Origin: Ignavibacteria bacterium
Lineage (GTDB): Bacteria; Bacteroidota; Ignavibacteria; Kapaibacteriales; Kapaibacteriaceae
Length of the DNA stretch: 36,534 bases
Direction: 5' to 3'
NCBI GenBank assembly: GCA_947458785.1
Contig: CANGZU010000009.1
Coordinates: 1 to 36,534, forward strand
Shown in pieces: positions 8,116-9,538 of this stretch. Numbering within the stretch: the first letter of the stretch is position 1; each line of letters opens with the position of its first letter. The notes beneath the pieces are model-generated. The model was given only the letters and a program-made list of their open reading frames with translations, searched no databases and was not told the DNA's origin. A program made the position numbers and the translations under genes.

Positions 8116-8191
8116 GGGCCCATAGCTCAGCTGGGAGAGCGCTTCAATGGCATTGAAGAGGTCAGCGGTTCGATCCCGCTTGGGTCCACCA
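8116..8191 (+). tRNA. tRNA-Ala (anticodon GGC)
   Basis: A complete cloverleaf can be drawn. The acceptor arms GGGCCCA and TGGGTCC pair with one G-T wobble. The D-arm is GCTC/GAGC. The anticodon stem CTTCA/TGAAG holds the loop ATGGCAT with anticodon GGC, which reads GCC/GCU alanine codons. The T-arm AGCGG/CCGCT holds the loop TTCGATC. The 3' CCA is encoded (8189-8191) after discriminator A. It is transcribed with tRNA-Asp 13 bp downstream. Confidence 0.97.
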
Positions 8192-8204
8192 GCGTAACGG
8201 TTAC

Positions 8205-8279
8205 GGGATCGTAGCTCAGCTTGGTTAGAGCGCCGCCCTGTCAAGGCGGAGGTCGCGGGTTCGAGCCCCGTCGGTCCCG
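8205..8279 (+). tRNA. tRNA-Asp (anticodon GTC)
   Basis: The acceptor arms GGGATCG and CGGTCCC pair with one wobble. The D-arm is GCTC/GAGC. The anticodon stem CCGCC/GGCGG holds the loop CTGTCAA with anticodon GTC. The T-arm is GCGGG/CCCGT with loop TTCGAGC, including one mismatch-type wobble. The discriminator is G. CCA is not encoded, unlike in the preceding tRNA-Ala, so it would be added by the CCA-adding enzyme. A strong intrinsic terminator follows within 15 bp. Confidence 0.97.
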
Positions 8280-8291
8280 CTCCCGAACAAC

Positions 8292-8352: not shown

Positions 8353-8450
8353 CTAACTGGTCATTGGTAGTTCGTAGTCGGTACCTAGTACCTAGTAACT
8401 GGTAACTAGTAACTAGTAATTGGTAACTGATAACTCTTCCTTGGTCATTC
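8353..8450. repeat. Degenerate heptanucleotide tandem array 1 (GTAACTR-like)
   Basis: About 14 consecutive 7-bp units keep one phase from 8353 to 8450. Typical units are GTAACTA, GTAACTG, GTACCTA and GTCATTC; two units near the end (8430-8443) are poorly matched. The array starts about 25 bp after the tRNA terminator and runs into the stop codon of the small minus-strand gene (TGA at 8445-8447, within the last unit). Two related arrays lie on the other side of that gene. Period and phase were read directly from the sequence; function is unknown. Confidence 0.85.
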
Positions 8451-8795
8451 CCCTCCGGCTCCACGGAACTTATCGTCTTCGTCGGCAAAGAGAATGTTAA
8501 ACGAAGTCATAGAGCCGTAGATCTTGGTGATATACCCCTGCAGTTTGACTTTCTCGGCTACGCTGAGGCTGGCATTTGCATTGATCTGCTGTTCCATGAC
8601 CCGCAGATTGTCGCGCATCATCACGATCTTCTGCATGAATCGCTCAATCGACATCTCATGCTGCTTGAGTGAAGCATCAGCTGGTTTGAAGATCATAGTG
8701 CCGTGCTGCCATTTCGCGGCAAGGGGCGCATGATGACGCTTCTCGAGTTCGTCTGCAATCATCGATGCAAGGAGTTTGAGTTCTTGGTAGTCCAT
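8445..8795 (-). CDS. Small conserved-looking protein of unknown function (116 aa)
   Basis: I do not recognise this family. The product is 116 residues with no signal peptide and no membrane segment. It appears largely alpha-helical: N-terminal helix (DYQELKLLASMIADELEKR), a short middle with a possible strand (GTMIFKPAD), and two further helices rich in Met, Gln and Lys. The tail is acidic then glycine-rich (ADEDDKFRGAGGE). Codon use resembles the neighbours and no overlapping gene competes for the region. It is the last gene of the minus-strand run after nadD, separated from it by 122 bp filled with heptad repeats. A near-consensus -7 element (TATCTTTC, 8800-8807) ends 4 bp before the ATG, so it may have its own promoter. 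It could be a small regulatory or structural protein, but nothing in the sequence decides this. Confidence 0.72.
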   Translation of the reverse strand: MDYQELKLLASMIADELEKRHHAPLAAKWQHGTMIFKPADASLKQHEMSIERFMQKIVMMRDNLRVMEQQINANASLSVAEKVKLQGYITKIYGSMTSFNILFADEDDKFRGAGGE

Positions 8796-8806
8796 GTGGG
8801 AAAGAT

Positions 8807-8848
8807 AAATGACGAATGACGAATGACGAATGACTAATGACTAACTAC
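8807..8848. repeat. Heptanucleotide tandem array 2a (GAATGAC units)
   Basis: Six in-phase 7-bp units: AAATGAC, then GAATGAC three times, then two variants beginning TAA. The reverse complement (GTCATTC, GTCATTA, GTAGTTA) belongs to the same family as arrays 1 and 2b, so this array is an inverted copy relative to them. It directly abuts the candidate promoter element of the small gene at 8795. Confidence 0.88.
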
Positions 8849-8864
8849 CGATAGAAAGGCGCGC

Positions 8865-8920
8865 GTAACTGGTCATTCGTAATTAGTCATTAGTAATTAG
8901 TAACTGGTAATTGATAATCA
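8865..8920. repeat. Heptanucleotide tandem array 2b (GTAATTA/GTCATTC units)
   Basis: Eight in-phase 7-bp units such as GTAACTG, GTCATTC, GTAATTA and GTCATTA, ending with ATAATCA, whose last three bases form the nadD stop codon. With array 2a it makes an imperfect inverted repeat: 30 of 42 positions match when the arms are paired around a 16 nt spacer (8849-8864). Array 1 ends in the same way (a GTAACTG-type unit followed by ATAAC), which points to a common origin. Confidence 0.88.
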
Positions 8921-9538
8921 TCTCCGATACAACTTCTTCTCATCAATATAGTCCCGGACGGCTTTCACGGTCTGGTAATTGATGCTTTTGCCGTCGGCTA
9001 CGCGATTACGGATATCCGTTGACGATATCTCCAGTAAGGGGGCTTGAATCCATACTGGTGGACGATTATCGACTGTGAGCTGCTCCGTCATGCGTTGTTC
9101 TAGTTCCGGTGTGAGAAGGAACGGACGTCTCACGATACATAGCTGTGCGATGCGGCAGATGTCCTGCCAGTCTTTCCAACGTACGAACTCAATTGCCTGA
9201 TCGCTTCCTATGAGCAGATGCAACGATGCGTCTGGAAACTGTTGCGACAGTGCCCGCAGCGTATCTACCGTGTAGGATATACCCTCACGATCAACTTCGA
9301 CGGTGCTTACATGAAACTTGGGATGTTGTTCGGTGGCAAGTGATACCATAGCAACTCGGTCTGCTGGAGATGCAAGCCCCTTATCGCCTACTTTAAAGGG
9401 CGATTGAAAGGCCGGCACAAAGTAGCATGCATCGAGAGATAGATGATCTACAAACCGGTCGGCAATGATGAGATGCGCAATATGTATCGGGTTAAACGAT
9501 CCGCCGATGACACCGATGCGCTGATACGAAATCGACAT
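8918..9538 (-). CDS. nadD: Nicotinate-nucleotide adenylyltransferase
   Basis: NadD joins ATP and nicotinate mononucleotide to give deamido-NAD, the shared step of de novo and salvage NAD synthesis in the cytoplasm. The 206-residue length is normal. The nucleotidyltransferase signature GGSFNPIHIAH lies at 12-22, with His19 and His22 as the HxxH pair. The second signature ISSTDIR is at 171-177. The gene lies 14 bp downstream of zupT in the long minus-strand run. Its stop codon is formed inside the last unit of a heptad repeat array, so the repeat may have contributed the final bases of the gene. Function is secure. Confidence 0.94.
   Translation of the reverse strand: MSISYQRIGVIGGSFNPIHIAHLIIADRFVDHLSLDACYFVPAFQSPFKVGDKGLASPADRVAMVSLATEQHPKFHVSTVEVDREGISYTVDTLRALSQQFPDASLHLLIGSDQAIEFVRWKDWQDICRIAQLCIVRRPFLLTPELEQRMTEQLTVDNRPPVWIQAPLLEISSTDIRNRVADGKSINYQTVKAVRDYIDEKKLYRR

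Follow-up and report, generated by a model that had tools for sequence, protein, structure and literature searches.

Outward-facing tandem heptad arrays at gene junctions in Kapaibacteria

The window, i.e., the whole stretch of 36,534 nucleotides that was analysed, holds three arrays of one degenerate 7-bp unit, GTMAYTN, close around a small conserved gene, and two of them run into stop codons. How do such repeats come to lie flush with genes, and are gene ends their target, as the initial annotation proposed for a mobile or slippage-driven repeat?

Three arrays around a small conserved gene

The locus comprises the following features:
8116 to 8280, plus strand: genes for tRNA-Ala and tRNA-Asp, on the far side of array 1
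8353 to 8450, plus strand: array 1, GTMAYTN heptads that face the small gene from its 3' side, with strict units at 8395-8428
8445 to 8795, minus strand: conserved small gene for a protein of 116 aa, without a match in Pfam or NCBIfam
8808 to 8848, minus strand: array 2, made of GTCATTC/GTCATTA/GTAGTTA units and forming the left arm of a divergent pair
8849 to 8864: core of 16 bp between the arms of arrays 2 and 3, not conserved among other array pairs
8865 to 8920, plus strand: array 3, forming the right arm of that pair and facing the 3' end of nadD, strict units at 8865-8912
8918 to 9538, minus strand: nadD, nicotinate-nucleotide adenylyltransferase (NCBIfam)

A scan of the window for two adjacent GTMAYTN units, with one mismatch tolerated, returned 19 matches, all within 8353-8912, against 1.66 expected from dinucleotide shuffles, none of 100 of which reached 19. 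This bears out the three arrays of one degenerate unit that the initial annotation had placed here, including the inversion of array 2, which lies on the minus strand. In array 1, degenerate in-phase units flank the strict ones, from 8353 and up to 8450, and array 2 consists of strict units at 8808-8841 followed by GTAGTTA to 8848, facing the start codon of the small gene at a distance of 12 bp. The stop codon of the small gene (TCA, 8445-8447) lies inside an in-phase GTCATTC unit of array 1, which supplies it, and that of nadD (TCA, 8918-8920) inside ATAATCA, the last, degenerate unit of array 3, so that both stops are indeed covered by in-phase units. The array end described earlier, a unit followed by ATAAY, is present at both of these arrays, but at no other locus read in this genome; GATAAY was consequently rejected as a conserved array terminus, since among the loci of this genome only the two window arrays carry it.

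The identity of nadD agrees with NCBIfam, and searches of the small protein (8445-8795) against Pfam and NCBIfam matched no family. The small protein retains 63-75% identity across the genus, with homologues reaching records of Chitinophagales and Hydrogenedentota. In seven relatives bioY overlaps or almost touches the start of the small gene, an adjacency which suggests a coupled function of the two. The array-free relative G010 features the order nadD, permease gene, bioY and small gene, and the divergent pair of the window occupies the place of its permease gene and bioY, both of which are missing at 8796-8917; no bioY was found in the genome of the window (97.9% complete).

Occurrence, polarity and dialects of the arrays

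In the genome from which the window derives, a Candidatus Kapaibacterium draft of 2.13 Mb in 175 contigs with several arrays near contig ends, the three-unit GTMAYTN pattern was matched 423 times and the reversed pattern once, and array-end searches combined with the reading of loci gave at least 42 arrays that contain three or more strict units. The initial annotation had staked its reading on further arrays elsewhere in the genome and on a placement tied to gene ends; further arrays are abundant, their positions relative to gene ends are non-random, and they behave as dispersed insertions prone to slippage, in keeping with the kind of repeat it had envisaged. Arrays are present in 12 of 40 genomes (relatives and the genome of the window), with none in the relatives G003, G005, G007, G010 and G017; the bearers include G000, G001, G002, G004, G006, G008, G009, G011 and G012. 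Across the phylum, a four-unit array occurs in 38 of 395 genomes, and many arrays in only a few, mainly of this family.

The main regularity of the arrays, absent from the initial annotation, is that they face outward, toward the gene that they abut. Based on gene starts from a simple codon-model gene caller and tRNAs from ARAGORN, 36 of the 38 arrays listed for this genome lie nearer the boundary that they face (sign test, 5e-9). Stop codons are faced by 24 arrays, start codons by 10 and tRNAs by 4, at median distances of 4, 8 and 15 bp, respectively, the boundary behind being about 75-125 bp away, and spacers with two arrays are divergent in 13 of 13 cases. When only arrays at most 15 bp from one boundary and more than 30 bp from the other are considered, this boundary is faced by 30 of 30 in the genome of the window and, among the matches listed, by 32 of 34 in G012, 9 of 9 in G004 and 16 of 16 in the octad genomes (87 of 89 for the four sets). 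Starts and stops are faced at 33:33 in G012. These spacers also contain other word families, including GTCTCTC, GTATTCT, GTTCGCT, GTAATCA and GTACCTCC, which mostly show the same facing near a boundary. Gene ends are thus places where arrays sit, as proposed, but stop codons were rejected as a special target, as starts and tRNAs are abutted as well. Stops occur inside arrays because the arrays abut gene ends and contain stops; the antisense of the commonest units of this genome (CAATTAC, GAATTAC) lacks them, so that the supply of stop codons cannot set the polarity. By gene direction, the array junctions of this genome are 10 convergent, 10 tandem and 1 divergent, against 18, 99 and 17 in G010, an enrichment of convergent ones.

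Identical code applied to unrelated IMG/VR contigs with the same motif gave no polarity (24 of 49 arrays; 3 divergent and 4 convergent pairs), and in the distant Bacteroidota G036, G278 and G133, with 3 of 16 arrays together, the tendency was reversed or missing; a fourth distant Bacteroidota genome followed the rule in 4 of 5 arrays. A pipeline artefact was rejected on these grounds, and the polarity is therefore a property of the lineage and not of the method. At L380-L395, the loci of the three distant genomes, a start codon tends to sit behind the arrays, which is the reverse of the Kapaibacterial rule, in small numbers.

The genomes differ in the wording of their units, with GTAATTG/C and GTCATTC/G in that of the window, GTCACTT/C in G012, GTAACTC/G/A in G004, GTCACTC in G001 and G006, and units of 8 bp, GTAATTCA/C, in the octad genome G009. 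About 12 loci of G012 have in common a 5-bp-deleted variant, GTMACTCAACTYGTCACT, for which copying between loci fits better than separate origins. Arrays are furthermore found within genes, as an in-frame array in a variable loop of HemW of G012, judged against relatives, and as further in-frame arrays in PrmC and an ABC-F protein. At two other G012 loci, L102 (1942-2054) and L142 (1952-2036), in-gene arrays run antisense to the gene, with the 7-bp register broken by 5-bp units; L102 shows a 33-bp super-unit, and in both the frame stays open, coding VTSDELRVTSE-like repeats. The same genome has, at L121, L122, L123 and L125, TPR/guanylate-cyclase genes of about 2 kb in series; close to every one of their junctions there is an array of four units, accompanied by a CCCACGAAGTGT-like repeat.

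Array-bearing junctions and how they may have arisen

Orthologous spacers were compared at six junctions, a small number, between relatives at species level, and measure 2, 6, 9, 66, 78 and -4 bp in array-free G010 and 173, 34, 208, 221, 202 and 179 bp in array bearers. That an ancestral spacer was overwritten by an array is weakened as an explanation, since the relatives' spacers amount to a few bases only. At one junction, the upstream gene of G010 overlaps the start of what is presumably murC, and G004 carries a complete divergent pair between these two genes, the tail of the upstream protein being changed from NLYSSQS to ESY; an identity as MurG was rejected for this G004 gene, which we take to resemble a carbon-nitrogen hydrolase. 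The C-terminus SVEESVEAL at another junction is replaced by SVEDELLITNYQ, which is array-coded as read from the sequences. In a tree of the small protein, G010 groups with the array-rich G004 and G002 (support of 0.98 for the three), and the arrays are therefore dispensable.

Cores between the arms measure a few to about 100 bp and are apparently unrelated to one another. Those at L048, L072, L074 and L076 often contain a REP-like hairpin, e.g., TTTCCCGCTTCCGCGGGAA, representing a second short intergenic repeat family. With regard to target-site duplications, eight of nine pairs have no shared flank above 5 bp, and the lone 9-bp case is array-like sequence. The arms of one spacer sometimes belong to different families. 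Arm pairs fold as strong hairpins (z of -3.7 to -8.9), yet the complementarity of real pairs is no better than that of shuffled pairs (p of 0.6-0.8), so that no recent joint insertion of both arms is visible and a selected hairpin between the arms was rejected. Among candidate enzymes, Ku is absent in 22 of 22 genomes searched and the reverse transcriptase RVT_1 in nearly all array bearers, and a reverse transcriptase or Ku-dependent end joining was rejected accordingly. The Y1 transposase is present in array-free relatives as well as in array bearers and no arrays adjoin Y1 genes in the stretches read around them, for which reason Y1/RAYT was rejected as the agent.

Our preferred reading, to which we would give an even chance, is that arm pairs were inserted into compact junctions and then resized and copied. 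The arrays would be dispersed, lineage-specific insertions filling gene junctions, with a basic unit of two inverted tandem-repeat arms facing outward around a short variable core, the arm words being 7-bp GTMAYTN here, 8-bp words in the sister species and other GTNNYYN words elsewhere. Likely targets would be gene pairs with almost no DNA between them, where insertion may sometimes cost a few terminal codons. Slippage, together with copies passed between loci, could then let the arms diverge independently in length and wording, giving rise to the species dialects, and the arrays would be mostly neutral or selfish and no termination device. We infer that the pair was inserted as a unit, that the arrays spread by copying and not by independent origin, and that some agent sets the polarity. 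Observed directly, and in favour of this reading, are the genome-wide family, the polarity, the dialects, the deletion variant common to many loci, spacers wider than those of an array-free relative and close relatives devoid of arrays; the like facing of other word families, the in-frame arrays and the lack of polarity on the viral contigs also speak for it. Against this reading speak the lack of an enzyme that tracks the arrays, of target-site duplications and of a conserved core, as well as the mixed-family arms and an arm complementarity no higher than that of shuffled pairs. The strict outward rule suggests a directional insertion process, and we propose tentatively, at somewhat less than an even chance, that Kapaibacteria possess one. 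It could be a non-autonomous element whose arms are tandem repeats or else a repair reaction by end extension, and would lay GTNNYYN heptads or octads outward at junctions with a polarity that outlasts changes of word and period.

The main rival, which we consider unlikely, would see the arrays as filler of repaired breaks: a junction breaks, the ends are trimmed to essential sequence, and the 3' ends are extended with copied (NRRNNAC)n and joined. Outward polarity in any gene direction, independent arm families and a loss of terminal codons are predicted by such a process, and arms flush with gene ends, flanking protein tails swapped for array-coded residues, missing target-site duplications, different-family arms in one spacer and the position of the window pair, where the bioY/permease block is missing, are all consistent with it. 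The flushness is, however, equally explained by insertion into junctions almost without spacer, and the process lacks an enzyme because Ku, missing from all genomes searched, and the reverse transcriptase are not common to array bearers; we also know of no enzyme with the specificity needed. It appears quite improbable that the arrays are functional boundary elements, in which the outward arms would signal in both directions at the RNA or DNA level, as transcript ends, as sites bound by Rho or S1 or as insulators, with selection keeping their orientation. The strict polarity retained across the change of period, the strong arm-pair hairpins and the enrichment at convergent junctions could support such a role, but the sense-strand orientation is opposite between 5' and 3' untranslated regions, the hairpins look incidental in view of the shuffled pairs, arrays are found in coding loops too, and G003, G007 and G010 live without them. 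Moreover, convergent arms would fold equally and are yet essentially absent. A Rho site in particular was rejected, as units of this genome such as GTAATTG are not C-rich.

Ordinary simple-sequence repeats, i.e., chance heptads slipping locally in spacers with neither dispersal nor direction, would account for the varying array lengths, and according to PMC4679880, citing Mrazek 2007, many repeat-rich genomes have heptamers as their most frequent class of repeat. This already disfavoured reading is very unlikely in view of one word family, in a dialect of the species, at no fewer than 42 places of a single genome, the indel variant common to about 12 loci and the polarity (p of about 5e-9).

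Relation to known repeat systems

Cyanobacterial heptamer arrays were recognised decades ago and, to our knowledge, have no accepted origin. The STRR heptanucleotide repeats of filamentous cyanobacteria, reportedly described by Mazel in 1990, likewise form many intergenic arrays of degenerate heptads, the difference being the host lineage, here Kapaibacteria, and we know of no polarity rule for them. Being multiple, tandem and dispersed, and built of degenerate 7-bp units, the present arrays belong to this broad heptamer-array class (STRR/LSSR). With MITEs they share small size, non-coding nature and inverted ends, but target-site duplications and a conserved core are missing, the inverted arms enclosing cores that look unrelated, and the arm sequence varies within one spacer. 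REP/REPIN elements with RAYT (Y1) transposases (PMC3116915, PMC3733652) are alike in being short, intergenic, arranged in inverted pairs and dispersed non-autonomously, and Y1 proteins occur in these genomes; the arms here are, however, tandem arrays instead of a fixed palindrome of 20-40 bp, and the arrays show neither the fixed palindromic REP hairpin with its GTAG or CGTC tag nor, in the stretches read around Y1 genes, the linked Y1 transposase.

The closest counterpart is the TAACTGA heptamer, a direct repeat reported from marine Beggiatoaceae, from Cyanobacteria and from five Bacteroidetes (MacGregor 2015, PMC4679880); the initial annotation, which knew of no described family in this lineage, had not taken these relatives into account. 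Both are tandem 7-bp units of a near-identical word, intergenic and patchy among species, with related heptamers mixed and in-ORF cases, and TAACTGA sets often end a few bases short of a start codon, which they face. Of the published sets, 147 of 170 face start codons and 12 face stops, and reversed sets are present in a Microcystis sample (PMC4679880). Unlike this pattern, start-facing arrays in the genome of the window (median of 8 bp) are fewer than stop-facing ones (10 vs. 24), and for the exact TAACTGA tandem, TAACTGATAACTGA, a count of 0 was obtained both for the window and for the loci of its genome, G012, G004 and the octad genomes. Divergent pairs as a rule, arrays that face starts, stops and tRNAs without distinction, a change of period to 8 and a comparison with the junctions of an array-free relative are not described in PMC4679880, which does note two Bacteroidetes junctions as shorter in relatives. 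The literature searched, with most subscription journals outside its scope, held no description of divergent pairs or of equal start and stop facing as a rule.

The hosts are freshwater bacteria, and the repeat type is known elsewhere without a strict orientation rule. A near-absolute rule that persists through the change from 7 to 8 bp, together with clean before-and-after junctions in a close relative, makes the origin of heptamer arrays testable, and the arrays illustrate how compact genomes acquire spacer DNA and changed protein tails. The Kapaibacterial arrays are a variant of the known cyanobacterial and Beggiatoaceae heptamer-array class, with a strict orientation rule.
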